DNA from: Bugulina stolonifera
Lineage: Eukaryota > Bryozoa > Gymnolaemata > Cheilostomatida > Bugulidae
Assembly: GCA_935421135.1 (NCBI GenBank)
Contig: OW285189.1
Span: forward strand, 5,291,072-5,355,071
Reading direction: 5' to 3'
Length of the DNA: 64,000 nucleotides
Positions 11,939 through 49,800 of the stretch are shown piece after piece (position 1 is the stretch's first letter; every line of letters starts with the position of its first letter). The notes beneath the pieces were generated by a model. The model was given only the letters and a program-made list of their open reading frames with translations. It ran no database searches and had not been told where the DNA came from. The position numbers were made by a program, and so were the translations under genes.

Positions 11939-13142
11939 CAGGGCCGTAGCGCCCTAAGAAATGTTGGTGGGGCCAAAATATTAGGCCGGGGGCCCAGGGG
12001 GCCGCCCAGGCCGCCGGCGCCCTGAGAGTGTTTTTCAGAAAAATAGAGCAAATTTGAAGCAGTTCAGGTTTATGAAATATACCTGTGTAATAATATTAAA
12101 TATAACCCAGCCTCATACATATATATGCATGTACATGTATACATTGTATCTGTTCACAATTATGACTGAACATAAATCGCAAATACTTTACTCCTTTACA
12201 ATGATGAAAAACATGCAATGAAATGAAGTAGAGCTAACGAATCTACAAAAAGCAGCTGAAAGCATGTGTTTCTTTCCTACCATACAGTGGTCAAAGTTGG
12301 GGAGGTCGTGGGGGGACGCAGTCTCCCACCATAAATTTCAAGGAGTCCCTCAGACTGATAGACCCCCTACAGATTGCTGTTATAAAAAATCAAATGTGGT
12401 CACATTTATTTTCCTTGTTTCATAGCAACGAAATTTCCTCTTAAAATCTTAAGATCTTAGAAAATATTTTAACCTGAGGTTCTTGGATTTTGCACCATTT
12501 CGATGTCTAATTTTGATAAAGTTTCCAATTTATGGGAGGGTGCTCAGGCGCCCCTATCGGACCCTCCCCCACCAGCGCACCGTTCGGGAGCTTCGATGTC
12601 TGCTATCCTAGAGAGTAGAGACCCCCCACCACTTTTCTTAGACTTTGACCACTGCTACCATAGAGATATTTCTTATTTCTCCCTATAAGATTGAATGCCT
12701 AAGTAAATATATTGACAACAATGTAGGGCAGACAGATAGCCGAATCCAAAAAAGTTTGTTCAATTGAAAACTAATATAATTGTTTAGATTTTCAAGGTTT
12801 ATATTTTTAACACACCCAGTACATGGACTGTGTATACTTCTTATACTGTATACTGAAATAGTCTTGAGATTTAGATTTATCTCCCCCGACAGTTATTCAA
12901 TATCTAAAATGTTACATAATTGTAGTTAAGTACGGTAGTATTTAGAGTTTCCTGATATAAAAATGTTTAGCACACTTATTATCACCATATCCTTACATAT
13001 TTTGTAAACGCCGCAAAAAGGAAAGTGGAAGAAACTTTAAACACTGATCTGACCATGGTATTAAATTGACTACATTTTGACTTTGCAATGCCACAAGTTG
13101 AGACGGCCAAGCCGCACGGCCGTATAGGGCACTACGGCCCTA
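11939..13142. mobile_element. hAT-like non-autonomous element inserted in a microsatellite (8-bp duplication)
   Basis: The ends are inverse of each other: CAGGGCCGTAGCGCCCTA at the left and TAGGGCACTACGGCCCTA at the right. TGTATATG flanks both sides (11931-11938 and 13143-13150), although the target is itself repetitive, which weakens that evidence. The length is 1,204 bp including a nested element at 12285-12654. There is no transposase frame. The extreme right base (A instead of G) differs from the perfect inverse. Confidence 0.75.
12285..12654. mobile_element. Nested hAT-like MITE with perfect 8-bp target duplication
   Basis: It begins CAGTGGTCAAAGT and ends ACTTTGACCACTG. CTACCATA occurs directly on each side (12277-12284 and 12655-12662). 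The 370-bp body lacks a transposase and has extended inverted matches (GGGGGG near 12310 against CCCCCC near 12623). It lies wholly within the element at 11939-13142 and so inserted later. Confidence 0.88.
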
Positions 13143-13930
13143 TGTATATGTATGTATATGTATGTATGTGTATGTATGTGTATGTATGTGTATGTATGTG
13201 TATGTATGTGTATGTATGTGTATGTATGTGTATGTATGTGTATGTATGTGTATGTATGTGTATGTATGTGTATGTATGTGTATGTATGTGTATGTATATG
13301 TATGTATATGTATGTATATATATGTATATGTATGTATATATATGTATATGTATGTATATGTACTCAATCTGCATACAGTGTACTGTTTCGGTGTGTATAT
13401 GTGTGTATATGTATGTATATGTATGTATATGTAGGTATATGTATGTATATGTAGGTATATGTATATGTATGTATATGTATGTATGTATATGTATGTATGT
13501 ATATGTATGTATATGTATGTATGTATATGTATGTATGTATATGTATGTATGTATATGTAGGTATATGTATGTATATGTATGTATGTATATGTATGTATAT
13601 GTATGTATATGTATGTATATGTATGTATATGTATGTATGTATATGTATGTATATGTATGTATATGTATGTATATGTATGTATATGTATGTATATGTAGGT
13701 ATATGTAGGTATATGTAGGTATATGTGTGTATATGTATGTATATGTATGTATATGTATGTATGTGTATGTATGTGTATGTATGTGTATGTATGTGTATGT
13801 ATGTGTATGTATGTGTATGTATGTGTATGTATGTGTATGTATGTGTATGTATGTGTATGTATGTGTATGTATGTGTATGTATGTGTATGTATGTGTATGT
13901 ATGTGTATGTATATGTATGTATTATAAATA
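13143..13930. repeat. Long TATGTATGTG / TATGTATATG microsatellite
   Basis: About 790 bp of alternating blocks of a 10-bp unit: 'tatgtatgtg' in 13160-13290 and 13760-13905, 'tatgtatatg' between. A short unique interruption lies near 13361-13395. Because the 10-bp unit has no stop in most frames, long open frames appear on both strands; they are artefacts. Confidence 0.97.
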
Positions 13931-14421
13931 TGTTACAATACATTGTATGTATTATGACTTGAACCCAACTTCACCTGAGTGGGCCCTTGTTTTCTACTTT
14001 CTCACAGAATTTAATAGTGATTTGAACTAATGCACTTCCCTAAATAAACATTCTAACATTAGTACAGACTCAACACATTGTAACCTACATGTACATGTAC
14101 TATTAGGAGTTAGCTGTTTGGTCGTATCAGGTCCACAGCCCAATCCTCAATTACTTCCAATAATTATATATGTTTGGCAAACAAACCGAGTGATAGCCAA
14201 GGCAGCAGCAAGTCACTCTTGATATGATCTGTGTCGATCTTTTTTATCTAAAGCGCATATCAGGCAGTACTTATCAGATAACTTGTTTAACTTGAGGGTC
14301 TGTTGGTTGCAGGAAGATTAAATTGATTCTGGCTTAAGCACCATCATGATAATATAGACAGCAACACTCAATGCTGCCTCCCTTCTAGTGCTTAATTTAC
14401 ATTTTCTGTCAGATAGTCAAG
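13931..14421. promoter_or_regulatory. Upstream region of the calcyphosin-like gene
   Basis: This non-coding interval separates the microsatellite from the ATG at 14422. It must hold at least part of the 5' UTR and perhaps the promoter, but no TATA box or other element could be assigned with confidence. Confidence 0.3.
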
Positions 14422-19049: not shown

Positions 19050-20520
19050 TCAGTCAATGAGAGTCAATTGAGCAAAGCCGAGTAGTGACCTGTCGCAGGG
19101 AGCCTCGTTAGGCCCACATCCTGAGTTAAGTCTAAATATTTGCTGCTTCTCGCGCTTCTCGATCACCTTGTCCAAGTTGGCGGCCATGATGATGAGATCT
19201 TGTCCGTCTACAAGACCTGCTTCCACCAGCTCTCTGGACACAGTCTCTGACGTGTCCTTACCGATGGTGAAGTCAAACTTTATATCATGTAACTCTCTCT
19301 GCTCATTCCTTAGCCTCAGTACCAGGTGTAGCTCCTCCCCTTCAGGTTCCTCTGCAATGTTTGTCTCCTTAGCTACAGGAGCCAGGTTGTCTGGGTTGTC
19401 TGTGGAAGTGATGGTTAGGGAAGACTTTTCATCTGGTAGGTCAGTTTCTCCACCTGTGGACACCATTGATACACACAAGGTAAGATAACTCTAGTATACA
19501 CAACAGGCTATGCCTCCCTACACCTTTGCACCAATTCATAGGAAATAGTCAGAGTCTAAAACTATCCATATACTCTCACGAGCTTAATATGGAACTCATC
19601 TACGGAGACAGAGGCACTACAGAAGTAGGAATTCCATGATATTAAATACACAATATATTTTTAAAATACTTCAAGTACAAATACATGTATAGGTGTACAA
19701 AGCATGTAATGTTAGTAGTACTAGCATATATACCGCGTATTGTATATACTGTAAAAATACCCATGAATATTGTCTACAAACTTTCGGCACCACACTCACC
19801 TGATCCTGCAGCATTGACCTTCGACTCCTGAGACAGACGTTTCTTCAAATCTTTAGCTAGTGCCTGTCTTTCCTCAACTCTGGGAGTTCGCTCACTCTGT
19901 GCTGCCAGCCCTGTCCAGCCAGAACACAAACATTATACACTCAAATGTAAGCTATTTCACTACCGTTGCACATCAGATCTTAGCAAGAAGTTGTTCCCAC
20001 ATATGCTGCACACCAAGAAGCTTCGACCCTTGTACTACATATTAAACTGTATAAGGAGTTGTCCACGCATGTCCTATACTACTACTAACACTGTATAAGG
20101 AGTTATCTACACATGTACAGTACTATATGGAGTAATGCACGTGTTTATGCACTGCTGAATCTCAGTCAAAGTGCTCAATGTTTACAACAGAGCTAATTAA
20201 TATTTGGTAGAATCTCACTGTTCTATCTATTTTATTACTATTAGTTTCATGATATATACTGGAATGAAATATATAGCAATCATGTACAGTACTATACTAC
20301 TACTAACACTGTATAAGAAGTTATCCACACATGTACTATATACATATCAGCTTACCTTCAGGACTCTCTGAATCCATGTCATCGTCTGACCACTCCCATG
20401 TCCCATCTTCTGTTTTATGCAGTCTACCGCTAGAACCAGGGACACGCCTCACTTTTTGTGGATTAACTGCAGAACCGCTATCTGATACCAGTGTTTTCAG
20501 TATGTAAGCCTGATAAAACA

Positions 20521-20767
20521 TACAAACTAATTACAAGATTGCAACAAAGTTACTCTGATACAACAATAATATTAATAATCACTCTAGAATATCATGGTGG
20601 TATAATTTGGGAGTTATCGCATCTTGTATATAATACTACTGAACTCCAATACAGGAAATTGGTGGGAGGGGCAACACTGCAGCCTCTCTGACACATTCAA
20701 GAGACAGAACTATGCAACCATCAGCTAAACTAATAATTCACTTCACAATATTAGATTCATGTTTAAC
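20521..20767 (-). other. Intron of the SPAK/OSR1 gene
   Basis: The intron between the last kinase-domain exon and the exon that carries the VRRVPGSSG motif. Nothing else was recognised in it. Confidence 0.7.
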
Positions 20768-21132
20768 CTTATCTTTAGCTTTCCTAGTAAAGAAGTCATG
20801 TTTAAGCAGTTCTTTAGCCGTCGGTCTTTCCTGTGGATCTTTCCTCAGACACTGGTTTATCATTTTCCTGAGGGTCTTTCCATAGTTCCTATATTGATGC
20901 TCATCTTCAGCTCCGCTGTCTATGGTGGGCGGATCATTCTGTAGCGTTAGCATCAGTACCTTCATGGGAGGATACTTATGATAGGGAGCAGTACCTGGTA
21001 CACGCAATATCAGTTATTAGAAAGAAAAGCACATACAGAGTGGAACTAACATCAGACAGTGAGTTAGCATAATTATCACATTAGAATTTGTTGAACAAGA
21101 CTGGTGAAGAAGTTTGTACTGCAAGAGGGTCA

Positions 21133-21444
<312 letters not shown>

Positions 21445-21784
21445 TCAACAGCCATATAAGCTATGATACCAAACTTGGACTATACTTGCAACAAGCAACA
21501 ACAAATACAAAAACAAATCACAGGGAGTTGTAGATGAGTTACATAAGATAGCACAACACCATTCCAAGCTCTCACACAATGGTAGCAACTTTCATGGCAA
21601 TAATGCAATTATAATAAATCATATACTGTACACTGGGTATATAAAACGCCAATAAAAGATAATGATCTTGATAAAAAATGGGCTTGAGAAGGGCATAACG
21701 CGATTTTAATTTAATGAGCCCCACCAAAAATCGATTTCAATTTAACGACCACAAAAGTACAGGATTGTGGTAAAATGTGGTAAG

Positions 21785-21890
21785 GTGCTGGTGGCCGAGT
21801 GGTCTAGTGCTAGTCACTCTGGTCTTGGAGCAATGATGCAAGTTATCTGCAAGGGCGTGGGTTTGAGTCCCACCAATGACCTGGAGGTTT
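21785..21890 (+). repeat. tRNA-derived SINE head (Leu/Ser-type)
   Basis: A box-like TGGCCGAGTGG is followed by a long variable-arm region and B box-like GGGTTTGAGTCCCACC, as in leucine or serine tRNAs. The following sequence continues without a normal tRNA 3' end, and the arms do not fold as a canonical tRNA. It is most likely a SINE rather than a working tRNA gene. It lies in an intron of the SPAK/OSR1 gene. Confidence 0.6.
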
Positions 21891-22199
21891 TCGTCCTGAA
21901 GAAGGTTTTCTCTCTGTGCCATATCGAACTATAATAATGTCTAGCTCTAGGAGCCGTGGTGGCCCCTCGACTAGCTCTGCTATTGGGCAGCCACGTTAAA
22001 GATTTGTGTTTGGCGCCACGGATATTAAGGCAAAATTACAACTTTAAACCGATCTTCTGGCTCATAAGAAGTATATTTACCCCTTTTTATTATCTCACAT
22101 GTATAGTCGAATATAGAATTGCACTTGCAGTAATCCTATCTTACAGTTACAGATGAGATTAGTATTGCATAGCTAATCTTATGGTAGGCAACAATTGAA

Positions 22200-22290
22200 A
22201 AAAAATTTAGTCCTCTAGAGGGATTCGAACCCATGTCCATTGGATTGATAGTCGAGCACTCTACCCATTACACTATCAGATCAGCAGGGG
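22200..22290 (-). repeat. tRNA-like sequence on the minus strand, probable SINE or tRNA pseudogene
   Basis: Read on the minus strand it has TAGTGTAATGGGTAGAG (A box-like) and GGGTTCGAATCCC (B box). The acceptor-stem halves do not pair well, so I do not call a functional tRNA. It lies in the same intron as the SINE head at 21785. A perfect 10-bp stem TTTAACGAGT/ACTCGTTAAA follows at 22419-22446. Confidence 0.5.
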
Positions 22291-23118
22291 TTTTGCGTAA
22301 AAACCAACCATCATATTTGTAATCAACCGCGGTAATACTTTACTCGTAGTGTTGCTACAGCTAATGAAAACAACACGTGCATATGTTTAACTAATAGTTT
22401 AGTAATACAAATTATACTTTAACGAGTTTGATCCACTCGTTAAAATGCTAAATTAAATCACGCGAATGAAACCCAGTGTACAGTATGTAATTGTATGTAA
22501 ACAGCAAAGTTCCTGAGAAAACCTGAAGAAAATTCTGTTGGGCTACATTTCAGTAACAGGAATTTGATGATTGACTTTGGTGATACTGAAGCCTTCCAGT
22601 ATTTTACTAAAACCTTATTATAGGCCTATAGTATGATAGTGTTACTCACACTGGAGGTCACCACAAAAACAACCTACATTTAGACTACACTATACTAAAC
22701 GACTGATCTAGTAGGGATAGGCTACTCTAATGACAAAAAAGTCTGAGTTAATTGCAAATTTATTACCAACTATAGGCTATGTATGTAGGCCTAAGCCTAA
22801 ATGCAAGTAGAAAATTTCAAGTAGAATTTATTGAAAGTAAAGTGACAAAAAGAAAAATAAAGTAATGTAGCAACTAGACTTACCAACAAAAGTGTGCCTG
22901 ACCGTATCTCTGGCCATGTCTTTGCCGACTGCAAGCCATGCACTGACACCAAAGTCAGCTATTCGAACAGTGCCATCTTTTGCCAAAAGAATATTACCAG
23001 CTTTGATATCTCTATGTATTTGACCATTGCTGTGGAAGTATTCCAGAGCCTTAAGTACTTCCTTGAGGACAGTTGCAATCGATGCCTCATCCAGCACACC
23101 ATTTTTAGTATTAGAAGT

Positions 23119-24565
23119 CAGGGGCGTAACTTTTGAAAAATTTTTGGGGTGGCTAGAAGTCGGGTGTTTATGCAGGCCATCGGCCTGCCCGAGCGCGGAG
23201 CGCGAGAGCGGGGTGGGTGCGGGAGGGGCGCAGCGCCCTCCCGCAAGGGGGGTCCGGGGGTCTCCCCCGGAAAAAAATTAGAAAATTACTACCTAGATAT
23301 GCAATTTCGGGACGTTTAAGGTGTAAAATTACTGCTCAAAATAATTGGATATTAGATATGTATAGTCAAGTAAATCAAAGTAGCACAAGACAGCTGGAAT
23401 TTTTCACGCTGTGATACATTAAACTGAGCTTTTCATAAACAGGTATAGAATAAGTTTGAGCGCCGAAAACATATAGGCTAAATTGGTTCTCTAAATAATT
23501 ATTCCTCACTACTAAAGCTTCACTAGAAATTAGACCTATATTATCTCAACTAGGCCACCTTAAGCACACTAGATCTAACATTACTAGTACTGACTAGTCT
23601 ACTTAAACTACTGACCAGGATACTTTACTATCATGATACAAAATAAAAATACAGAAACAAAAAAAAATAAACGGATAAGTCTGCTAACACTAGCACCAAA
23701 AGATTTTGCGTTTTCATTCTCCAGAAAAAATATTTTTTCCTACACTAACACTGACAAGAATAAGAATAGAATCAATTAATTAAATAATACAATATAATAA
23801 AATATATTATAATTATTATTATGATTTATTATTATAATAATAATTATTGGTGGCTACATGAGTGGGGTTTTGATATTATTAAAAATAAATATTAATAAAA
23901 TATAATAATAATAAATTAATATTTATATAATAATTATATAAATATTTATTAATAAAATATTAATTTATTATTATTATATTTTATTAATATCGATTTTTAA
24001 TAATATCAAAACCCCACTCATGTAGCCACCAAATCCAGCAACAAGTTTTGCTCACATACATGCTAACAATCTACTTGGAAGCCTATACAATGTTCATCTT
24101 TTTGTTGGAGGACGGAGGTTGTAAAGAAGCAGTTATAACTTAAAAAGTAGCAACAAGTTATTTGGTCTGTACGGAAAATTCCAAGTTATGTAGCTTGAGA
24201 TTAAAGTAATTCATGGAGCCGGTTTGGCTTTATATTCAATATAATCTACATATTATGCAACTGCAATTATAAGTAGCTACAAACCTTGGGCTAATCACCC
24301 TGATTGTAAATAATGATTGGCTATTTCTAGTAATCCGATAATTTGATTGGTTTGTGGAAAAATAGCGTGTCGCATAAACTATATTCTATACTACATCCTT
24401 AGAAATACGTAGTAAGGAAAACTTTACCGCGGCCATAGGAGAAGATAACTCTATGGCCGCCGTAGAATTGATACCCCTGAATTCAAAAACACCATTTTTG
24501 GGCCACTTTATTTTGAAATTTAGGGGCGGCCATGCCGCTCTGCCGCCCCTAAAGTTACGGCCCTG
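23119..24565. mobile_element. hAT-like element inside the kinase coding exon (5-bp duplication GAAGT)
   Basis: The element is 1,447 bp with ends CAGGGGCGTAAC and GTTACGGCCCTG. GAAGT flanks it on both sides (23114-23118 and 24566-24570). Removing the element and one GAAGT rejoins the kinase frame exactly. The same termini and a 5-bp duplication occur in the element at 44345-45016, so this is a family. There is no transposase frame. The interior has a GC-rich block (23180-23275), an AT-rich block and a large palindrome at 23847-24032. Confidence 0.93.
23847..24032. repeat. Large near-perfect palindrome within the transposon
   Basis: The left arm starts TTGGTGGCTACATGAGTGGG and the right arm ends with its inverse. 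The match continues through 'gttttgatattattaaaaat' and, less perfectly, through an AT-only centre. As RNA or single-stranded DNA it would form a hairpin of about 90 bp. It may be a MITE nested in the hAT-like element, but no target duplication is clear. Confidence 0.85.
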
Positions 24566-25586
24566 GAAGTTCTCATTCGTTGCTTAATTATGTCTAATAG
24601 GGAACCGTAGTCACACAACTGCATTATTACCCAAAGTTCATCTTTCACCACCATAGACGTGTAATATTGAACAACATTTTCGTGCTGACACTGACTCATT
24701 GCTTGTATTTCTTTTAACAACTCGTCCAGGGACGTGTTGCTCTTTTCAAGGTTTATTCTTTTAATAGCCACTTGTTCATTTCGAGGTTTACACAGCGCCC
24801 GTTGGACTACTGAGGTGGCACCAGACCCTATTACATCGCCAAGTTCGTAGTCATCGCGGTTAGTAGACCACACCACCTTTTCTGAAGCCATTATTCAGCC
24901 AACACCTTTCCCTTTCCAACAAGCTTTTCATGAACTTTTCCCCATAAAGTGTGCCTAGCCCTTGTGTCTAGACCGGGCCTTTGGATGAATCGAGATTCGA
25001 CGTATAAAAACAATGTTTTTATCCATATAATTGATCGTCAGTGCTCCAAGATTTGTGCTATGTCGAGGTTATAATTGTTGTTGAATCACGTAATTTTCTA
25101 TTTAGTTTCTGCGCATCGTGTCATTCATGAGAAGAAAACTACAATTAGCATATTGCAATCCACCAAAGAGTTGTCTAATAACTACGTAAGATGTGTTTTT
25201 ACATGTGGTACGTCACATGCACATAGTTATGCATGTACATGTACACTTCGAGTAGCTGTTAGCCCTAAATAAAAAAACATGTCCACTAAAACAAGCTTTA
25301 CTAGTACATGTACATTGCACATTCTGGCACTGAATCACAGCATCTCCTCATGTAGCAATAAAATAAAAAAATAATAGACACTAGGAGATCTTACACAGAT
25401 GTACATCCTTTACTGTATTTATTTTGGTCAGCAAAATTTAAAAAATGACTATGAGATCAACATAGAATATTTTTTTGCACTTTCCATGAAACCCAAAATA
25501 TGATACTGATATTTATTACATGGACACTGTATTGTGTTGCACATTAAATAAAGTTATATATATTATATACATAAAACTTGTATACC

Positions 25587-26616: not shown

Positions 26617-29600
26617 TTACTTTGGAGGACATCCAGGAAAGAGATAAAGTTTCTTCAAGTTTGTGAATGTACATCGACCATCAGGTACACATCCTCCTAC
26701 TGGTTTACCTGTAGACTTTGTATAAGATATGCTCACCTTTCGAACTCTGTCTTGTATCTATTAATTATGTACAATAATAACCAAGTATTACAATGAAGTA
26801 ACTAATAAAGGTGAACAGAATAAAGTAGGAGTTGTCCTTTCTCAAGTGTCTCACAAGAGGTGACAACTCTGTCTTGTATCCATTAAACATCTACATGTAC
26901 TTGGATACAATAATATTGTAACTAAGTCGTACAGCACAGTGGATAAGTAGCTACATTTTTATACTCTCTGCATGTATATGAACACTGCAACTACATCGTA
27001 GTCATGATTGTAGTAAGTGGCAAGCAGGAGTCGTCCAGTCTCATTAGATTATATGATGAGGGAAGATAACTACCGATTTAATTTTGAAATAGAACAGCTA
27101 AACTTATACAGTAGCTAAACTTATTGCAGTGTAGTGCTCGTGCTAACTAGTTAACAGTAAACAGTTACAAAGCAGTATCTCACAGTTGCCACCCCTTAGT
27201 TAAAAGTTCAGTAATCAACAATCTTGTCACAGACAACAGGAATATAATACTCACAATCTTAAACAACTCCTCAATGTGTCTATGGCAGCTGTGCTTATAG
27301 AATGTAGCTACAAGGATTCTAATGAACCAGGAACCATGGGTGGCAAATCTAACAGCTTTGTATGCTGAAATAAAACGAATAATATATCTACATGTAGTTA
27401 TGGAGGGAACACGTGTCTTAGTACACAGGGTAGTAGCCTACATTTATAATTCAATTTGCATCATATAGCCAGATCCCGCATGCATAGCAAAGCATGTAAA
27501 GCAAGGTATATACATTATACAGTTGGTATGTAGTAGGTATGGGTATGTATAGTATGGATTGTATAGGAAGACATGCTTAATAAGGTATTTATAGTAAAGT
27601 ATGTATAGTATGGTATGTAAATATAGTAAGGTTATGTATAATAGTAAGGCATGTATGGTATGGTATACATAGTATGGTATGCATAGTATGGTATGTATAG
27701 TATGGTACATGTATGTATGGTATGGTATGCATAGTATGGTACATGTATGTATAGTATGGTACATGTATGTATGGTATGCAATGCATAGTATGGTACATGT
27801 ATGTATAGTATGGTACATGTATGTATAGTATGGTACATGTATGTATAGTATGCAATGCATAGTATGGTACATGTATGTATAGTATGGTATGCATAGTATG
27901 GTACATGTATATATAGTATACAGTGCATAGTATGGTACATGTATGTATAGTATGCAGACTTTACTGTACAGTACAACCTGTACTATAGTAACAACAGAAA
28001 GAACTAACACTCAGTAGAAGATTTCATGATAAAGAAATCATCAGCATTGAGAGTATCGAGATGAGACAAGTCACCAAACTCTCCTCTATAAGTCTGTCCT
28101 GTTTCTATCCCTCTGATCGGTTCCAGCTGAGTTTTCTTCTTCTCTGGCTGCTGATTGGCTGCTACTGTTGGTGTTGGTGAAGGGAGTTGGGTAGCAGACA
28201 CACTACCAAGATCTATACGCTCTACAATTGCAGTGGGAACACAATTCTCATTAATGATACAAACCCCCAAATATGTTGCTATCACATCCATCACAAGATA
28301 TAACTTGCTAACCAATTGTAGGTCGATTGGAAGCACGGAAGAATAATATCTCATCCACAGTTTGTTAATTACGTATGTAGGTGAGATCAATAGTATATAG
28401 AGAGTCATACATTATTAGTTAATTCAGCTAGCACTAGCAGCAAGTGCTTGCTGGTGCTTGCTGGTGGTTAGGTCTAGTTATTTGCAGTAACTTACCTCCT
28501 GAACAAGCCTGTATGATAACAAGTTTAGGTTTTCCCTTCATTGCTGGAAAGTTACTTGGAGAGAGCAAGCCTTTAATCTTCACTAAATCTACAAGCTGAT
28601 AGTTACAGTCATACAGATAGTCTCCCCTTGAACCATGAGACATCAACACAAGACAAAACATGTTGTAGTTGTGATGCTCATCGCGCTCTGTTTCCTGTTT
28701 AATCTCAGAGTAAATCTCCTGAAAATGAAACAATGAAGGCTTGTATATATTATTACAGGGGGTAGAGATGATGGTAGCCAATGTAGTACATGGTACAGTG
28801 GACGCCTACATACATTATACCAACAATGGTACAGTGGACACCTACATACATTATATCAACATAATTATGGTAAGGCGCCACCTACATACATTATATCAAC
28901 ATATGGTACAGTGAACGCCTACATACATTATACCAACATATGGTACGGTGAACATCAACATGCATTATACCAACTATTTGTATTTTGTATTTTGTTACTG
29001 TCAAGCCCCTTGGCCATCCTATTTAACGGACCGCTCAGAAGTATGAAACTTGTATGAGCGACAGGAGCACCTTTCACAATAGGAGTGCATGGTCAGTGAC
29101 CACTACATCAACCTGCCACCCCAATGTGGTCACATACCCCGCCAGAATCTGGCTTCTCTTTGCGAATCAGGGCAGAGGTGGATCATCAACATGCGTGTTT
29201 TTGATGTAGACACAACACAGGACCTCCTGTATTATTTATACGCCCTGATCCAAACAGGCGCAGCTAGGGTGAAAGGCTTGCTGAAGGCCTTTGCCAGAAA
29301 TGACACAGCTCGGGGGTTTGAACTCACAAACTCTTGGTTTGTGTGCATGTATGCCACCAACTGTGCCACCCTGACACCCAATATGGTACAGTGGACACCC
29401 ACATACACCAACCAACAAATGGTACAGTGAGAATCTGAGCCAACACATGGTACAGTGAACACCTGTACCAATGATTGATTATTGAACATCATATATCCCC
29501 AAATAAATTCACTGCAAATGACACTTGTCACTAACCTCTGCCTTCAAGTCACTCAGCTCAGCACTAGACTTTACCATCTCAAACCTCAGTTGTTTGAATA

Positions 29601-32600
29601 AAGTAGAGAGATTAGCGCAGTCGCACTCTGAACCATTTCTAGTGTCCTGTAGCTTACCATCTTGATAGAACTGTCTATTATTTATGATCATAACTCTACC
29701 TCTTACTGGGTCACTCATCTTGTACACCTTCAAGTAGTGAATGCAATGTAGCATATATACTAGAGTAGTACAGAGTAATTCAAACTCTAAGGGGTCATCA
29801 TAAGTGGTTTGAATTAGGCATGAGTTTGAATTGTGTGATCACTTCAATTTGTAAACATGGCTTGGATGCCTACTTCACACATAATACGATGCATGAAACT
29901 TTCTTTGCTCCAACTGTGAAATTTAAAGTTTTAACATGGCAGCTCCCTGGTCAATAGAACTTGTGCTGTCTATTACACTCAAAAGTACAACAGATCGGCA
30001 GTAATGAATCACTAGTACATGACAACAGTATGAAAACGCATTTAGCTATGGAACAGCAAATAAATTAGTGTTTCCTCTGCATTAGAGCTCGAGCAGAAAT
30101 TGTGTTGTCAATGCTATCAACATAACCCAGTAGTTGAATGCAACGTTAGTGCTCAGATGTGACTAATGCATGTTGTAAAAGGGAGTCTCCATTGTAATAA
30201 CAAATAATTATTAGCACAGATCTCTATACATTGCACAATAAATTCATTAGAAGTCTAAGAAAATAGGGTAAGTATTTGAAATGTACATAGTAAATCCGAA
30301 TTGGTAGAAGCCACTTCTATAGTATTCAGCTGAGACCAAAGCCAATAGCTAGGCATTAGAATTATCCAGGGTCAAATTAGGTATGTTCCACAGTGTATAC
30401 GGTGACATAATAGTATCATCTGTAGACTAACTACAAGTACCTTGTTGGGATTGTCAAACAGAACCAGGATTTTCTTGCTTCTTGTGGGTTGAAGTCTGAG
30501 AGATATTTCAGGTCGTGATGTGGTCAAGTCAACGTATCCTTCCTCTTCTACATCAGAGATATCACTCTCATCACTTGGAGCTGATGCAGTAGCCACACCT
30601 ACATGTATATTGTAACATAAAGTATAGTGATGAACAGTTGCTCCACATGGCGTATGATAATGAAAAACAACTCCAAGTTATTGTTAGTAATAATACTAGT
30701 ATTAGTACACGCAGATGTACATGTAACTGTATATATGTGAAGATGCAATGAAAGTCTACACATTAAGTGTCTTCCCGACCTGGTAGACCAATCATAATTG
30801 CTACTGATTTCCCCAACATTGAAACAGGGCCTGCGCCATACCAGCCCTTTATTTGTTCAAAACCAACCATCATGAGCTTATCAACAACAGGTTTATTGCA
30901 CTATAGGGTGACCCCGCGGCCTCTTTGGCCGGCCAAATAAAATTAGCAAATGGCCCATCGATCTAAACTAAAAGAGCCAATGACCCACAGTTTTGCTTTG
31001 CCAAAGCAAACCATCCCAAGCTCTTCAGAAGAAAATAAGGTTTTGCATTTGACTCAGACATCTGGTTTCATGGACCAATTGTTCTTTTTTGGCCAATCTA
31101 GTATTGTTGTTAATCTTTTCAGTCCCTAGTGTCATTACCTCTCGTGGAGCCGAGCATTTAATGTACGTGTGGGGTGGGATGTTTTTGACCAAACTAGACC
31201 GGGCCTGAAACTTTGTTTGCAAAGACCGCTATAGACTTGCAAAAGTATACAACCTGTGCACCATAAGATGTTTGGGCAGTTCCAGCTATTGCAGAAAATT
31301 ACCTGAAGGTATGGAGAGAAGACGTCTCTGTTCTAATCTAACAAGGTATCGCTTTAATTTGACAGTCTCTTCCTCAGTCAGCCGAAAACCTATAATTATC
31401 CAGAGGCCAAATAATTACTTTCAGCGTGATAGGAAATGGTACAAGTGCGGCAGCAGTATGAGATTATCCTAACTATTCATACTCCAGAATTAACTTAGTG
31501 ACGCTAGACTACAGAACTAACAAGATGAAAAAATAAGCCAAACGTTTTGTCTATATAGAATTATTCAAGATCACTACTAAACAAGATTTTCCAGATATTA
31601 AGTTCTAGCTCGATAAAATCCTGCCCAATTCAGACAGTACCAAGCTAGCACTATAGTCTGCGTACATGATCGTGCATTCTCATCGAATTATATAAACAAA
31701 TGTGGAATTTTTTCAAGAAGTGAATTTCCAGAATGAAAATAAGTCAAACGTTTGTGAACCCAAAGCTGGAATAATAACCACACAAAAGTTTTTACAAACC
31801 AACAACACTAGAAAACACTAGAAACATTTGCTTACATGGAAAACGAAGAGGTTTAGGAACTGTAAGCTCTCCTGTAGAGTTGGTATCAGCATTACAACAA
31901 GCTACTGGTTCTATCCCTGTGAAGCTGGTGGTAGAGGAGAGAGGATTACCATCTGAATCATGTCGGTGAGGTGATCTGAACCAATTTGGATTTACTTCTT
32001 GATCAGCATTGTCTGCTCTGGTGAAGAGACAGTGAGAACAGTAGAATGATGTGACTGGACGAGTAGCTTTCCATACTTCTGTTGTCTTGTCTAGAATGTA
32101 CCGGGTGAACTCTATCAGACGCTGCCATGAGGCACCGAGCTCCTCCACAGGGGTTGATATCTGTAGTGTAACCTTTCTCTTGCTGTGATCATGTACTAGG
32201 TGTGTAGCTCTTCTACCGTGTAGCCTGGTAACTCCATCTTGAGCTACTTTAACTGTGTCAGTCAGTTCAGGGTAGAATCTCAAGGCAGCAACTGTCATCA
32301 GCTGGTAGACATACTGTGGCAAAGAGAGTCCATTAAACAAGATATCAGCCCGTAATTGTATATAGCCATTGGTTTCCCACTCTTCAGACATAGACTTAGA
32401 TGAAAAGGAAGGTATGATGTATGTATCTATACCTTTGTGCTGTATGGGTCCATGGATGATATAGAATGAGCGCAACAGTTCAACAGCCACTTCAACTGTG
32501 AAGTTTGTTTCAGTTTTTAGCAACCCGGCCAGGAGGACCTCATCCATTAAGCCTCGTACTCTAAACTGCCGCACTAAATGTCTGAACGTTTCCTTTTCAA

Positions 32601-35600
32601 TGACCCTTTCACCGTGTCTGAAAACCGTGAACTTTGCTATTCTCTCATCCCAAATCGTATCTTCAGAGTGATGGAATACAAGAGTGATTATCTTTACTAT
32701 TTCTGGCATTTGATGGAAAATGTAGTTGGATAGAGAAGGTATCTTCGCAAACCACAGAACTTTACCACTGTTGTGTAGGTAGCCCACGATTATATCCATG
32801 TTTTTCTCATCAGGGAACTTAGATCTGACGTCAGATAATTTTATGAAGGGTTCAGCTGTCTGTTCGTCTATGTAGGTGCTGACTTCTTCCCACATTCTTG
32901 GAATAATGACTTGGAATTGAGCACAACGTCTCTCTATACGCTCCTTGATGCTCTGCAGTGTGTTTATATTCTCATCTTTACTCAACACAAAGATATCATC
33001 TGGTTGGAACAGAGGTTTGTTGGTGTCAGACAGATTGAGAATCTGGCAGAATTCACCGTCACCTTTTGACCACTCTTCCTCTTGTAACAGCTCTGTTCTG
33101 ATAGTCTCTGAACAGGTGAGAAGCTGAGACATACGTAATGTAAACTCTTCATCAGAGAGTTTGTCCCTGTGGGTAAGAACGAGTAGAGGGGCACCAAGTT
33201 GGGGACATGCTAGGTACAGATGGGACAACCAGTCTACACACAGCAGTTTGGTTGCCTCTCTTGGTCCTCTCTCAGAGACTAGTTTATCAAACTGTTCTAA
33301 ACTAATGACAATGAGTGGTATACACTGCTGTTTTAGTGTCAGCTGGTATGCCATATGGTATACCTGGTGCCCACCGTAATCTATCAACTGAACAGATGAG
33401 TCGGTCAGATCTAAACCTTCAATGTTAAACACTTTAGTCGTCTCATCCAGCGGAGAACTTTGCTGACGGAAAGTTAATTTACGTTTTCCTTCCTTTAGGC
33501 TACGGATGAGGCTGGTTTTACCTGCTAGCATGTTACCTAGTACAGCTACTGGTACTGCAGCAACCTCTCTGCTCGCTTCCATTCTGATATCTTCAAAATA
33601 GTTCTTAATAGCAGGAAGATCTTGTTTACATACGGCATAGGGAGGAGACTGAAGAGAGTAGCAAGAGCCACAGTCTACATCCTTCAGTTTACTCAACTTG
33701 AGTATGTCACTCTCTATCTCTGTGAGTTGGTAGTTCAGCCGCATGTCTAGTGACTGAAGGTTAGACAGCTGGTATATGACTGTGGGAAGTTTACCTTCAA
33801 ACTTGTTGGACTGAACATTTAACCTCTCAAGATTCTGCAGATTGCTAAAGCTAGAAATATCAGATGTGCATGTAGAGTATATAGGATATACACGTAGAGT
33901 ATATAGGATATACACGTAGAGTATATAGGATATACACATAGAGTATATAGGATATATATACGTACAGTATATAGGATATACACGTACAGTATATAGGATA
34001 TACACGTACAGTATATAGGATATACATGTACAGCATATAGGATATACACATAGAGTATATAGAATATACATGTACAGCATATAGGATATACACGTAGAAT
34101 ATATAGGATATACACGTACAGTATATAGGAGATACACACACAGTATATAGGATATACATTGTACATTATATAGGATATACATGTATAGTATATAGGATAT
34201 ACATTGTACAGTATATAGGATATACAAGTACAGTATATAGGATATACATGTAAATGCACCACATTAGTTTTACATTATGTCGTACGGATGTCCCCTTCGG
34301 CACAATGCAGTAAAGTTACATGAACCAACACCTTCGCTTTCTCAACCTTATAACACATTTAGTTGCATATTTTTGTACAATGCTGTGCTATACTCAGTAG
34401 TATGCTACCTTTGAGGTAGATGAGTTAGTTGACATTCACACAGCTGTAGTTCCCTTAGTGATGTAATCTGTGATATCACATCAAGTAGCTCAGTTGTGCT
34501 CTCCTGCCAGTGTCTTATCTGCAAGACTTTCAACTCTGGGAGGTTCTTCAGACTAGAATAATATACAACACAAACATCATAGAGCACACTATTCAATTGA
34601 AGTTTAGTAAATACGTAAGATGTGCTAATATAACACAAGATGCTAAAAACGGCTTATGATAAGCATAGCACAATGTAAAATATACATGTAGTAGAATTAG
34701 GTATTATTAAAAACCATTCTATTATTACCGCTTTCGCTGTTTACGACACATCCATCAGATAAATTATGTTCAAACAAATTTTAAAAATAAGTTTCGAACC
34801 ATCTTGTTTGATAGGAGTCAAATGTTTTTACTAAATCCAGTTCTGCTATTACATAGATTGTATTCTATGACTTTATAACAATGAAACCACTGAGAACAGT
34901 GTACAGTAAAGGCTTGGTTCCATGAGAGGGCGTGTGCTTCGGCGGAACAACTTTGTTGTACGTTGCCATGGTTCTATACGCAAGGTGTCAGTCCACCAGT
35001 GGCCTTGATTAATATCCAGCCAATAGCCAAAGCTGATTTCTAATGAACTATATAATTTAATAGAAAATACACCTTTATGTACTGACAGTGTATACTAACC
35101 AGTTAATGATACTAGAATTTCCCCCACTCTGTGGACTACCATCTATCCTGACATGTCTGAGGTGGGGAGCTATGATATCAACTTGTGGTAGCACATTCTG
35201 TTGTAGTATACACATGTGTGTGATATAATGAGAACCAATGGATCTCATTATATCATTGTATGTGACTGGCTCTACCTTCAAATAAACATCTTCTGGGATC
35301 CCATCTATCTCTGGCTGTCCAGAGTGTCTGTACCATAAGCTGAACTCTAATAGAATGATAAACTACATGTATGATAATATAACGATCCACCAAACATGTA
35401 TGAATAGGCTGTACAAGGCCAAATACTATATTGAAATATGACACCAGTTCAAGTACTATCATGGAGAAGCCGTGGCCGAGTGATTAGAACACTAAACCTT
35501 GTTGAAGGTTCCAAGTTCGAATTCCGGTCATGGTGGTGTTAGGAAGAGTATCCAGTCACAATTGCTTCTGTGCCTCGTCGTATACATGTAAAAGTCATTG

Positions 35601-38501
35601 GCGCCATGCAAACTAGCATAGCTTCAAGGCAACTCTTCTACCCTTGACAAAAAAGGAGCCTTTCCCATAGGAAGTTGGCCAGCGCTGGCATCTGGCAGTG
35701 CAAGCGTCGTCCAGAAATGGCACAACAAGATGGCAGCCGGAAGGCCGACCCAAAATAGGTCAGCCATAACAAAAGTTGCTTAAAAACATGTTAATCATGT
35801 ACAAAATCAATTACAGCTATTTCTGAGAGGTCGACCCCAGTTACATAGATATAAAAGGGTATAAATGCTCAGTAATGCACATAACAGGTAAGTATAAGAC
35901 AAGTTATGTTTCTGCACAGGCTAGTCAACATACATAAATAAGGTATGAATTGTCCATGACAATGCGATTCAGTACGAGTGGCTATGTCTATAGGGCTACG
36001 TTTACCACTACAACAGTATAGTACTCAAAGTACCCAGAGCACAGCACCAACTTCTGGTACCTACAGAATATATGGTGCACAGTAGGCCTGCACCGGTGTT
36101 GCCTCCCCACTGATATTCGGTTTTTGGGGTGGTGGTAATCAAACACCGGTTGACACCGGTTCTCTTGTGCCTAGTCTCATTCGGTGTCAACCGATGCCAA
36201 ATTTGGATCGATATACCGAACCGCACCGGACCCCTTGATCCTGGTCTCAAGCGGTGTTCGACGGTGTCAACTTTGGTTCGATATACCGGATCGAACTGGT
36301 CCAGGAGCTAGTTCGCCTAATAGAGTTGTCCCATCATGCCCGTTCAATACAAGGGAACAAAAATCCTCAACACTTTCTTGCAACATGAGTTCATGCCAAT
36401 CATTGTTTATTTTATTTTCAGGTATGGCAGGCAGACAGGGCTTCATTAAAACATAGTATATGTATATTATTTTATTTAAGTGGCTATTGGGCTAATGAAA
36501 GTAATCAGTGCTTACTCCTACTCCCAAGATTTTGTATTTGCCCATGTAGTCTAGTGAGTCTTAAGTTGCATTGGGTCTTACTTCACCTATTTTATGTAAT
36601 TTTAATAAATATAAAAACATGAGGCTGGACACACACCCAACTGACTACATATAATTTATTAGATTTATTACTGATTGTGACCAAATTACAGAAGAAAAAC
36701 AGCAAACATTGTTTCCACCACACTCGTACCACTGACACAAAAAGATAACAAATTAAAAATGACATGGGCTAACTTCATATCACAAGAGAAAGAAAAAACG
36801 CTAGCATAGCTGCATATGATGTAATGATATTGTAGGGAATCTTTCTTGCAAGCTTTCTTGATAGATTGCTGATTTGGTATAATTCAGTGTGTCCACCGAT
36901 TGAATCTAGCAGATTTGTCTTCAGATGGGATATTACGATGGCTCAGTCCGATGAATTCTACCTACAAAATATTGATTGAACATTAGTATTAGCTTATTTT
37001 AAATAAATAAAGAGCTGGTGCTTACCAAAAGCATAACTTAACGACACAACAATTTTAAATTAAAAAGCCATAATTAATAATGATTAACTATTATAAGCAT
37101 TGTAGCTATTCTTAGTTACAAGCGAATATAACCAAACTTAAACATTAGTAGTAGATTAATTATAATAGAAATAATTAATCCAATGGTATGTTTAAATTTA
37201 ATTATATTATAATTATTTATAAAATTTAATATAATCCATTATATTCGATCGTATACTACTGTTCTATTTCAGCACACTATTCATGAACAAAGCAATCATA
37301 TGCAAACGATAGAATATAATATACCAGAATCTGCTAAGTTACGTAATTAATGAATCAATTTAGTATAATTTAATAATAATTATTACCTCCACAACATTGA
37401 TAATCAATCACAGCCACGATGGCAGTTAATATTGAAACGGATTAGCGAAGGTATGCAACCTAGTTTGAAGTGAGGTAAACAAGAACACGTGATATTAGAC
37501 CGCATGAATATTGAATGACTACTGGCATAGCGGTCCGGTTCGATAACATCGAACTACACCGAACCATTGATATATCGTTTGGGCACGGTGCCGGTGCGAT
37601 TCGGTGCATAAAAAATTTGCCGATGTGTAACACCGAGGGTTCACACACCGTTTACATCGTTTGAAACCGAAACACCGTGCAGGCCTAGTGCACAGGCTCA
37701 GGCTCATCAGTAGCCTACCTTGTTTTACGTTGAATCATTATAAGCCGTGTGTCACAAATTCTGAGATATGATATATTTTACCAACTAACACATTATTTTG
37801 CTACATGCTATACAAATTATATGATATAGGGAAGAAGCCTGCATACCAATGTATGACGTCATTATTAAATGTAAACAATATTTAGTAATATTCTAATTAT
37901 AGTGTGACTCAATATGTTGTTGTGAAATACATAGGCCTACTAGAATGTTCTTACTGAATAACTATGTTATACTATAATACTGTTTTCTAGAACATTCTTA
38001 CATGACAAATTTATTATGAAATCTGTGCAATCTGTTTTTAGAAAGTTCTTGCTATTTTTATCAATGGAATATTCTAGATTATAATGTTTACTATATAAGC
38101 AGAGGCATTAGAAGTATAGTGGAGAATACTGTAGCTTTTGGTGAAGGAATAATAAAGGATATTACACATGTAGGATCAGCAAATATACTTCAGTGCTTAT
38201 ATCACTATAGCAATACCAGCAGTATACGATCGGATTACAAAGGAACCCTTCGACCACTAACTATTTACCGAACCTGTAACATTACCTCATCAGTAGTTTT
38301 GTGACACCGTGTAATTCTAAATTTGTACTACATGTATTTCCAACACTAGGGGGAGAAAACTTCATCATAGAGAAACAACATAAAATCTACTACATGAACA
38401 TGATAGACAGCGTGCAACTTACTTGGCTCTTTATCTAATACTTGGTAGATGCTTGGTCTTCCATCTAGTATAGGTGAATGGCTGCTAAATTTATTCCCCA
38501 T
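26617..38501 (-). CDS. LRR-ROC-COR-caspase fusion protein (Roco caspase)
   Basis: Eleven minus-strand coding exons agree in splice phase at every junction: 38423-38501, 35100-35346, 34409-34552, 31836-33850, 31303-31389, 30441-30598, 29536-29727, 28496-28718, 28009-28221, 27255-27364 and 26617-26757. Together they are 3,609 nt, predicting 1,202 residues. The start MGNKFSS fits N-myristoylation (Gly2, Ser6). Leucine-rich repeats fill about residues 100-235. The ROC GTPase follows, with P-loop GNMLAGKTS (262-270), DYGGH for the G3 motif and THRD for G4. A COR domain lies at about 440-650, then a CSHC-containing tail. An acidic linker (SDESDISD) leads to a caspase domain at about 911-1202: VYKMSDPVRGRVMIINN, pocket Arg in TRNGSECD, catalytic His1002 in LMSHGSRGD, catalytic Cys1046 in QACSG, an intersubunit linker, and a small subunit with AVRFATHGSWF. 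Roco proteins act as GTP-regulated dimers and caspases are activated by proximity, so a one-chain sensor-protease is plausible. The role is inferred. An upstream coding exon cannot be excluded. Confidence 0.88.
27530..27955. repeat. Minisatellite of about 20-bp unit in the caspase intron
   Basis: Repeated 'tagtatggtacatgtatgta' and 'tagtatggtatgca' words fill most of the intron between the intersubunit-linker exon and the first small-subunit exon (27365-28008). Minus-strand open frames full of Tyr, His, Thr and Ile are products of the repeat. Confidence 0.92.
28792..29465. repeat. Tandem repeat of about 36 bp interrupted by a SINE
   Basis: Units such as 'ggtacagtggacacctacat' plus 'acattataccaaca' recur at 28792-28975 and again at 29382-29465. 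The stretch between is a minus-strand SINE, which evidently inserted within the array. The whole lies in an intron of the caspase part of the Roco-caspase gene. Confidence 0.8.
28980..29385 (-). mobile_element. tRNA-derived SINE
   Basis: On the minus strand, A box-like TGGCACAGTTGG and B box-like GAGTTCAAACCC are spaced as in a tRNA promoter. An unrelated body of about 300 bp follows and ends in a simple tail, 'aaaatacaaaatacaaa'. This is the standard build of a SINE. Its host site is a tandem repeat, so the target duplication cannot be resolved. Confidence 0.75.
30599..31302 (-). other. Intron of the Roco-caspase gene, between the two linker exons
   Basis: It contains 'ggccggccaaa' and 'ggcccatcgatc' words (30920-31000) that look like an old dispersed repeat without clear ends. 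No other coding sequence was recognised. Confidence 0.5.
33868..34254. repeat. Minisatellite of about 22-bp unit in the LRR/ROC intron
   Basis: About seventeen copies of 'gtagagtatataggatatacac' and variants fill the intron between the third LRR exon (34409-34552) and the large ROC-COR exon. The array has no stop codon in several minus frames, so it makes the large exon appear to extend to 34227 or beyond. The acceptor TTTCTAG at 33851 marks the real exon start. Confidence 0.93.
35462..35850 (+). mobile_element. tRNA-derived SINE in the first large intron of the Roco-caspase gene
   Basis: The head is GCCGTGGCCGAGTGATTAG (A box) and AAGTTCGAATTCCGG (B box), with the long variable arm of Leu/Ser tRNAs. 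A non-tRNA body follows that contains 'gtgcctcgtcgtatacatgt' and 'ggcgccatgcaaactagc'. The 3' end is not sharply defined. The head resembles the one at 21785. Confidence 0.72.
36083..37687. mobile_element. hAT-like non-autonomous element, TAGGCCTGCAC ends, perfect 8-bp duplication
   Basis: The ends are TAGGCCTGCACCGGTGTT and AACACCGTGCAGGCCTA. GTGCACAG flanks both sides perfectly (36075-36082 and 37688-37695). It is 1,605 bp, with subterminal repeats of 'cggtgt', 'ggttcgatataccg' and 'accgaac' type on both sides and an AT-rich core. No transposase was seen. It lies in the intron 35347-38422 of the Roco-caspase gene. Confidence 0.9.
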
Positions 38502-46815: not shown

Positions 46816-46868
46816 TTGGTGGCAGCGGTGGGATTGGATGAATCCCGAGCGGCTATAGCATTGTAACA

Positions 46869-49800
46869 ATGTCAAGACTGAACCTAAGGAGTGGGTGTAC
46901 GAAGAATGCGTCCGTACAGAAGGGAGACAAAGATGTCAACGGACTTGTGGCTCTAGCGGAGCGCTTGTTGCTGGTACCCCGTCCAGCAGGACAGGCCTTC
47001 ACGGCTCCCTGCTTTGACGGATCCGGTGATGTTGAGCTCTTCATTCACCAGTTCCAGGCCGTTGCATGCGCCAACGGCTGGGACCAGGCCGCCACATTTC
47101 TGCACATCCGAGCCTCCCTTAAGAAAGAAGCTCAGGAATGTGGTCATTCACCAACCACAGCAGGGATCCTAGCAGCTCTCCGGGCCAGGTACAGCGTGTC
47201 ACCCCAGGTGGCACGGATACGCCTGGGCCAGATCCAGAAAGATAATCAGACCTCGTTGCCGAAATATGCGACTGAAATACAGAGGCTGGTTGATCTGGCA
47301 TATGGGGAGCTGCCCAGGCAACATAGGATTACCCTGGCCCTGGAATTCTTCATACATACACTGGAAGACACCAGTCTTCAGAGGCACCTTCTGGCGGTAG
47401 GCGCACCAGACCTGGAGACAGCTGTACAGGCAGGTTGTGACTATTTGCAATCGGTACAGGCTGAACCTACCAGGACGGCCAGAGGTACAGCTACCTCTGC
47501 CATGAGAATGGTGGATGCCCCGTCAGAAGAGGAGATAAGAGCTAGAGAGATGGCCGTCTTGGAGGAACGGCTGGGATTGGAGAAGGGAATGCAGGCCCTT
47601 TCTCAGTTGATTACACGGCTCAACCAAGAGCTGGTCGAGCCGACAGGAAAGCCGACGAGCTGGGTTGACCACCACAAGGTGGACGACCCACAGAGTCAGG
47701 CAAAGCAGGTGCGGCGGCATTTGAGGTCGTACACTTGGGGAAAAAAGCTAACGGACCGGACCCGTCGCCATAAGGCGAACGGCCCACCGATCCAGGCTGC
47801 CCAAGTGCCACGGAGCTTCAGGCCGTCCACCGAGCTGAGAGGGGAGCCGACGAGCTGGGTTGGCCACCGCAAGGTGGACGACTCACAGAGTCAGGCAAAA
47901 CAGGTGCGGCGGCAATTGGGGTCGTTCACTTGGGGACAAAAGCAAACGGACCGGACCCGTCGCCATCAGGCGAACGGCCCACCGGTTCAGGCTGCCCAAG
48001 TGCCACGGAGCTTCAGGCCGCCCACTGAAGGAGGACAGCAGGCGGACCTCGTCGTCCATCCCAGGGTGGGTGATTGCAAGGTGCCGACTGCAGAGGCAGA
48101 ACAGAAGCGACGTCAACCGAGGCCGTCCACTTTGGGAAAAAAGCTAACGGACCGGACCCGTCGCTGCAAGGCGAACGGCCCACTGGTTCAGGCTGCCCAA
48201 GTGCCACGAAACTTCGGGCCGTCCACAGGAGTACAACAGACGGACCGAGTCGGTCACCGAAAGGTGGACGACTCTAAGGTTCCGGCTGTAAAAACAGAGC
48301 AGGAGGTAAGGCCGTCCCCGGAAGGAAGAAAGCCAACGGCCCAGACGAGTCACCGCAAGGTAGACGACTCCCGGGCTCTGGCTAAGAAGGGGACCCCTTT
48401 ACTGCCCAGGGGAAATAGAAACCCAGACCAGGCGGGCTGGCAGAGGCCGCGGCGGCACTGCTCAAAGCCAGACCCTCCCCCCACACCAACCTTTCAGACC
48501 TGGAACCCCTTCCAGGCCCTGGAAGAGTGTGAGGAAGCAGACACGGGGTCTGTTAGTACAGGGTCGTCCTTGCCCGGGTCGTCAAGGAGATACAAGAAGC
48601 AGAGACAGACGGACAAGTCTGCCAATGCTCCAGAGGGGACGACACCGGTGCAACTCAGAAATACCCAAGAGGTGGGTAAGCCATACCAACCCAGCTACTT
48701 CCTGCCCGGGAAGACGGCTGGCCAAGCCGTCCACTTTCTGGTGGACACCGGATGCACGACTAACCTTCTAAACAAGGCTGTCTATGACAGGCTACCACCT
48801 GGCATCAGAGAACGGATGGTGACGTGTGACTCCCATGGGCTCATGGCGGACGGCACCCAACTTCCCTTTTACGGAGTTATACAGCTGAAGGTCCAGGTCA
48901 GGAATGTCCAGACGGAAGGGACATTTGTGGTATGTCGCATCAATGAGGATGCAATACTAGGCATGCCCTTCCTTTCCCAACACCAATGCCAGATAGGTTT
49001 TGATAAGCCGGTGGTTACGGTGGCGGGACGGGACCTGACGTGCACCGACCGCCATGGACGGCCACTCTTGGGCCGAGTCCAGCTGGTCAGAGCTACTGTC
49101 ATCCCTCCAAATACAGAGATGGTCCTGCAGGGGCGAGTCAACCTGCAGAACCTGCCCCCACTAGGCCTAGTGGAAGCAATGGAAGGCGGACTCATGGTGG
49201 CAGCCAGCCTCAATCGGCCAGATGCCAAAGGACGGTTGTTGGTGCGCTGCATAAACCCCTCTGGCCAGCCCTTGTCACTGACGGCGGGGGTACCTCTGGG
49301 CTCCTACCTAGGGGTTGAGGAGCTGGCCGTCGAGGACGGCCAGGGACAAGATCTTGTTGCTAAACGAGCTGTCCGGCGGGTGCAGACGGAGGCCTCCGCT
49401 GCACTGGAGTCGGGTGGAGGATGCACATCACCTCTACCCGTACCCGAGCACATGCAGAAGCTATACCAAGAGGCCCTACCCCACTGCGAGGGAAAGGCCG
49501 GCGAGAGGGACCTGGCGGAGCTATTGACAGAGTATAGCTCTGTCTTTAGCACAGGAGAGCAGGACTATGGGCAGACCACACTGGTAGCGCACAGTATCCC
49601 AGTGGCAGAAGGGACCCGACCCATCAGACAGCCTCCACACCGCCTGGGGCCGGAGAAAGAGGCCGAGGCTGAACGGCAGGTTCAGCAGCTGCTAGAGAAA
49701 GGGCTTATCACCCCAGCGGAAGGTGCCTGGAGCTCTCCGGTAGTCTTGGTGCGAAAAAAGGACTCGTCTTGGAGGTTCTGTGTGGACTACCGGAGACTCA

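Follow-up and report, generated by a model that had tools for sequence, protein, structure and literature searches.

The stretch of DNA analysed here, 64,000 nucleotides of the genome of the cheilostome bryozoan Bugulina stolonifera (hereafter the window), carries on its minus strand, from 38501 to 26617, an 11-exon gene, the exons of which were re-derived from the window DNA and are summarized in Table 1. The exons follow one another in phase, with GT donors and AG acceptors, and yield 3,609 nt encoding 1,202 aa with a single terminal stop, a total identical to that of the original prediction, which had likewise joined 11 in-phase exons without an internal stop. The encoded protein begins with an MGxxxS N-terminus and continues with leucine-rich repeats (LRRs), a Roc, and a COR, after which a bridge of 82 residues leads into a caspase whose His and Cys are intact. 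The limits of the last exon were set by alignment with two paralogues.

Table 1. Exons of the predicted Roco-caspase gene, in order of transcription (window positions).
Feature	Position	Strand	Content
Exon 1	38423..38501	-	Start codon and MGNKFS, predicted N-myristoylation signal (MGxxxS)
Exon 2	35100..35346	-	N-terminal segment; LRR region begins
Exon 3	34409..34552	-	Leucine-rich repeats
Exon 4	31836..33850	-	Final LRRs, Roc GTPase (P-loop GNMLAGKTS, DYGG, THRD), COR
Exon 5	31303..31389	-	Bridging exon, 87 nt, phase 1-1
Exon 6	30441..30598	-	Bridging exon, 158 nt, acidic motif ESDISDVEEEGYVD
Exon 7	29536..29727	-	First part of caspase p20 (VYKMSDPVRGRVMIINN), first Arg of Asp pocket
Exon 8	28496..28718	-	Caspase p20, catalytic His (SHG) and Cys (QACSG)
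Exon 9	28009..28221	-	p20-p10 linker; p10 begins
Exon 10	27255..27364	-	p10 (VRFATHGSWFIR, substrate pocket)
Exon 11	26617..26757	-	End of p10 (LYLFPG), stop codon

An OXSR1/STK39-like gene for a kinase, recognizable by Pkinase exons and an OSR1_C, occupies window positions 19050-24894 on the minus strand, some 1.7 kb downstream from the stop codon of the Roco-caspase gene. The window further contains a long open frame of a retroelement (46842-52115, plus strand), of which the piece 50001-51000 matched reverse transcriptase and RNase H, and a long simple-sequence repeat (13070-13970) with spurious open frames on both strands. Within intron 1, a segment of about 1.6 kb (36083-37687) has the inverted repeat TAGGCCTGCAC at its borders, with the 8-base repeat GTGCACAG on either side; this element, which in our judgement resembles a hAT-type DNA element, was revealed by an exact string search and not by the inverted-repeat search.

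When the protein was compared with Pfam, Peptidase_C14 scored 118.6 bits against a cut-off of 21.4 and covered positions 1-214 of the 233 in the profile, and the LRR matches reached or exceeded their cut-off. Roc (21.9 bits) and COR-A (19.3 bits) fell below the respective cut-offs of 27 and 35.3, and thus, among the domains originally predicted, the profiles bore out LRR and Peptidase_C14 in the window protein and left Roc and COR-A under threshold. Some paralogues, however, passed both the Roc and the COR-A cut-offs, and in a family alignment of 30 members, Roc was recognized at E <= 0.01 in 29, COR-A in 21, and COR-B in 12. The hallmarks of a Roc GTPase are the P-loop, DxGG, and THxD, and the window protein possesses the corresponding GNMLAGKTS, DYGG, and THRD, by which the gene is predicted to encode a Roco-type GTPase; a COR directly following the Roc is likewise predicted for the family, and weakly so for the window protein alone. 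Among solved structures, the sensor half matched CtRoco and LRRK2, with a coverage of the LRR and Roc but not the COR, and the caspase half was nearest to caspase-3 and CED-3. The presence of both p20 and p10 and of the His-Cys dyad in SHG and QACSG identified this half as an animal-type C14 caspase. Both arginines in TRNGSECD and VRFATHGSWF, which we take to form the Asp-binding S1 pocket, aligned with those of caspase-3; the second is replaced by Lys in two (P0004 and P0033) of the nine proteins of another cheilostome, Watersipora subatra, that include this part. Neither NACHT nor NB-ARC was found among the Pfam families of the window protein, which was thus not assigned to the NLRs.

Two close copies of the gene, A and B, are present on the same chromosome and keep exons 4-11, including exon 5 with its 87 nt and exon 6 with its 158 nt, and blastn matched their introns only in short stretches adjoining the exons. 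Copy B is the sole unbroken close copy, being open throughout with both bridging exons present; in copy A, the Roc frame is broken. The dN/dS ratio was 0.15 for exon 5 (a single comparison, since A and B are identical in this exon) and 0.24-0.25 for the whole bridge, as against 0.17-0.21 for Roc and 0.22-0.26 for COR, while exon 6 alone was less constrained (0.37-0.44). The acidic motif of the bridge reads ESDISDVEEEGY in the window protein and DSDLSDVEEEGY in Watersipora P0001, and its core [ILMCV]SD was found in 18 of 19 Bugulina gene models, which were built by script from genome DNA, and was missing in L039.

These observations bear on the rival explanation that the locus consists of two adjacent genes, one for a Roco protein and one for a caspase, which duplicate as a pair but are transcribed apart. 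In line with such an arrangement, the frame of exon 4 continues beyond its donor for 13 more residues and then reaches a stop, so that an intron-retained form would be a caspase-less Roco, and four poly-A-like AATAAA/ATTAAA hexamers, one of them inside exon 5, occur between exon 4 and exon 7. Two separately transcribed genes, on the other hand, fit poorly with the conservation in phase, at the joint dN/dS given above, of exons 5 and 6, which belong to neither domain, and with the intron stretch before exon 6, which offers no in-frame ATG (one was found before exon 7).

The architecture that the original prediction proposed to seek in related genomes is present in W. subatra, for which public protein models show an identical domain order on one chain, the best being a predicted protein of 1,386 aa that aligned with 91% of the query at 45% identity. 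Among the matches listed, 11 of the 15 Watersipora relatives have the caspase domain PF00656 (only partial in P0037), and the occurrence of the two halves on one chain in these models argues against two genes. The caspase is missing from the other four, P0006, P0038, P0039, and P0061, which would be in keeping with separate genes; P0038 and P0039 stop at the exon 6/7 border, directly behind the bridge motif, and represent either incomplete models or a Roco variant that lacks the caspase. All ten caspase-bearing Watersipora proteins examined possess the [ILMCV]SD core of the bridge, as does the eleventh, P0037, and SHG or THG together with QACSG was found in all of the ten. The protein searches scored at most about 8,000 candidates sharing exact words with the query. 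With the caspase part (1,633 candidates), all ten matches were from Watersipora; with Roc-COR, 9 of the 33 matches listed were from Watersipora and 24 from short contigs; and with the whole protein, 22 of the 31 matches listed were weak ones to LRRs or to bacterial Roco proteins.

The genome of B. stolonifera (234,951,659 bases) was searched exon-wise, with the exon-4 protein as the query for Roc-COR. The 68 exon-4 matches merged into 60 Roc-COR loci, 47 of which were full-length and uninterrupted, the other 13 not being both full-length and open. An exon-8 type caspase on the same strand, no more than 15 kb downstream, accompanies 58 of the 60; for one of these, at a distance of 13.4 kb, another Roc-COR exon lies between and the caspase is that of the neighbour. 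Accordingly, 57 loci have a downstream caspase exon of their own, 56 of them within 6 kb, and the same holds for 45 of the 47 full-length loci, while two of the 60 have no caspase. Random placement of the caspase exons, with clustering ignored, would be expected to give 0.13 pairs, and chance adjacency of Roc-COR and caspase was thus rejected. An earlier, overlapping count had found 38 of 39 paired, one of them at 11 kb, in a subset of the matches (88 of 139 caspase, 30 of 112 Roc, and 18 of 20 COR matches, the Roc and COR ones chosen for long open frames), and the later count is the one relied on here. The recurrence of the identical order at 57 loci is difficult to reconcile with two independent genes, although 13 of the 70 caspase exons stand alone, with no Roc-COR within 15 kb upstream, as that explanation would allow.

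Some members of the family deviate from the intact form. In L042 the caspase has neither of its catalytic residues, and L030 lacks the P-loop; these two may be decayed or regulatory copies, and, together with the broken loci and copy A, they indicate that part of the Roco-caspase family has decayed. At C10:1160515-1162530, a Roc-COR exon is open but has no caspase nearby; it is situated approximately 34 kb upstream of an orphan caspase exon (C10:1125809-1126030), and the two are possibly one gene split by an insertion.

Trees of Roc-COR and p20, for which L030 was left out and 10 Watersipora proteins were used, had 14 of 25 splits in common, whereas none of 500 label shuffles gave more than 3, and thus the Roc-COR and caspase halves mostly descend together. 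In three copies, however, the sensor and effector halves differ in history, a further point that could be counted in favor of two genes. L031 and the window protein are 89% identical in Roc, 84% in COR, and 76% in exon 5, but then only 35% in exon 6 and 60% in p20, and the p20 of L031 is instead 85% identical to that of L032, although the identity of the two in COR is only 55%. L032, for its part, is 85% identical to L029 in Roc and 76% in COR but 56% in p20, and L033 has the p20 type of L031 and L032 at 82% identity with a COR at 42-43%. In L031, L032, and L033, QACAS or QACSS replaces QACSG, on different Roc-COR backbones, and exon 6 moves together with the caspase. The simplest account of these observations would be that exons 6-11, a bridge-plus-caspase cassette, have been exchanged by recombination or conversion with a breakpoint in intron 5.

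Taking the conservation in the paralogues, the genome-wide adjacency, and the Watersipora protein models together, the single gene, the domain order, and the bridging exons originally predicted are well supported, with the amendment that the gene is one of 57 Roc-COR/caspase pairs. We consider it likely that the locus is a single 11-exon Roco-caspase gene, a member of an expanded cheilostome family, which would be expressed as one transcript encoding a membrane-tethered LRR sensor, a Roc-COR switch, and a proximity-activated caspase; two genes transcribed apart appear highly improbable.

The predicted membrane tether resides in exon 1, whose sequence ATGGGGAATAAA is retained in copy B, where both the ATG and MGNK are conserved (MGNKSS). 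Copy A, whose first exon is uncertain, starts with MGNEIN. Watersipora P0001, P0004, and P0006 also begin with MGxxxS, which we take to be an N-myristoylation pattern, P0036 begins with MGSLQY, and the remaining Watersipora models inspected have no MG start. The Roco-caspase is thus probably tethered to the membrane through N-myristoylation.

The LRRs differ from the rest of the protein in their mode of change. Of 20 concave-face LRR positions, 15 were different in the window gene and the intact copy B, as against 11 of the 94 other positions (p = 3e-8); the 20 positions, presumed to face the ligand, were taken from the LRR consensus and fixed after the alignment had been inspected. When the window gene and copies A and B were considered together, 16 of the 20 concave positions were variable versus 15 of the 94 others. 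Non-synonymous changes between the window gene and copy B outnumbered synonymous ones by 88 to 40 in the LRR part, the remainder of the gene having 122 and 143, respectively (p = 2e-5), and the dN/dS was 0.51-0.54 in the LRR part, hence not above 1, versus 0.07 in caspase p20. Copies A and B gave 55:12 in the LRRs versus 41:67 elsewhere (p = 1e-8) and a dN/dS of 1.86 in exons 2-3, both values involving a copy with a broken Roc frame and an uncertain first exon. Judging from these comparisons, amino-acid change is concentrated at the putative ligand-facing LRR positions, with the GTPase and the caspase constrained.

As to function, the Roco-caspase would most likely serve as a compact cell-death or defence sensor. 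The fast-changing LRRs would sense a ligand, the binding of which would alter Roc-COR in its nucleotide and oligomeric state, and this change would bring two caspase domains together for their mutual activation, initiator caspases being activated by proximity. The protease may subsequently be released from the membrane by cleavage at Asp residues in the conserved acidic bridge. In such a scheme, Roc-COR would occupy the position of the CARD/DED prodomain of other initiator caspases, so that the sensor, the switch, and the killer would all reside on one chain. The GTP-regulated dimeric scaffold of the original prediction appears too simple, as GTP binding monomerises the bacterial CtRoco according to passages of the report on this protein (PMC11052575), with which a simple GTP-driven dimerisation of the caspase does not fit.

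On the basis of the predicted architecture, the best reading of the protein is that of a membrane-anchored single-chain receptor that would work like an NLR plus its caspase. Extended to the family, this suggests a private bryozoan repertoire of some 45 to 57 such receptors per genome, in which hypervariable LRRs and Roc-COR would drive a fused caspase in an NLR-like job and effector cassettes would be swapped via intron 5, a proposal that we advance tentatively and judge to fall slightly short of probable. The same single-chain protein could instead serve cell death in the life cycle of the colony, that is, polypide degeneration and brown-body formation. Bryozoan polypides are routinely degraded and then regrown, and the intact active-site residues would suit this role as well; nevertheless, a protease acting in development would not call for dozens of copies whose ligand-facing LRR positions vary, and we regard this role as unlikely. 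The host is, in addition, colonial and sessile, and the LRR diversification and the cassette exchange would be in line with an allorecognition receptor that distinguishes self from non-self and kills at colony contact. Given that no extracellular domain was found in the window protein by Pfam and that the predicted myristoylation would put the protein on the inner side of the membrane, this last assignment seems distinctly unlikely.

Among the closest parallels to the proposed receptor are the animal NLRs with caspase-1 and Apaf-1 with caspase-9, which combine sensor repeats, an NTP switch, and a proximity-activated caspase. In these systems the switch is NACHT or NB-ARC, and CARDs bring in the caspase, whereas the bryozoan protein has Roc-COR as the switch and the caspase fused to it. 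Exon-wise Pfam matches in the whole genome numbered 1 for NACHT, 0 for NB-ARC, 3 for CARD, 11 for Death, and 11 for TIR_2, but an exon-wise search can miss intron-split domains, of which the lack of NB-ARC may be an instance, and we do not claim the Roco-caspase family as a replacement for NLRs. Several of the Watersipora relatives are named MFHAS1 by NCBI, with which they share the LRR-Roc-COR half; to our knowledge, vertebrate MFHAS1 has no caspase. IPR009003 is here understood as a trypsin-like fold and not a caspase. Such a peptidase domain forms the C-terminus of the three members of group 3 of the brown-algal ROCO proteins, an expanded set of LRR-ROCO proteins regarded as candidate immune receptors, some of which end in a protease (PMC11378527).

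In animals, the cnidarian NG1, as outlined in portions of PMC5094078, joins LRR-Roc-COR to a C-terminal immune effector, which is a TIR and not a caspase, and the amphioxus LRRs-caspase and TNFR-caspase hybrid genes fuse a receptor directly to a caspase in what sections of PMC2575513 term a "shortcut"; the words Roc and COR are absent from the main text of the latter paper. In bacteria, LRR-Roc-COR proteins with C-terminal effectors including a caspase are already in print, so that the original prediction, which knew of no described Roco-caspase, holds for animals among the matches listed but not in general; in the relevant passages (PMC8195603), this LRR-AP-GTPase(Roc)-COR family resembles the bryozoan one in its LRR, Roc, COR, and caspase as effector, and comprises paralogues with differing effectors. 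The bryozoan gene would thus conform to the LRR-Roc-COR-effector order of the bacterial systems, from which it differs in being intron-rich and in having a caspase that matches animal caspase structures, the bacterial side being compared by description in parts of the same report (PMC8195603). In one figure of PMC12909245, caspase and COR are named among the domains of sponge NLR architectures, and a sponge protein may bear both. No animal Roco-caspase was found among the matches listed in the open-access PMC literature, nor was any work on such genes in Bryozoa among the literature matches listed, and as far as these go, LRR-Roc-COR-caspase in an expanded form is new to animals.

If the proposed reading is true, the family would represent an animal death receptor with sensing, NTP switch, and protease on one chain, and the control of an output domain by a Roco protein, which is open for LRRK2, would thereby become readable by a protease assay. 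The apparent movement of exons 6-11 from one backbone to another would provide a testable case of effector shuffling, and the family as a whole suggests a further route to a large animal receptor repertoire, beside the expansion of NLRs or surface receptors.
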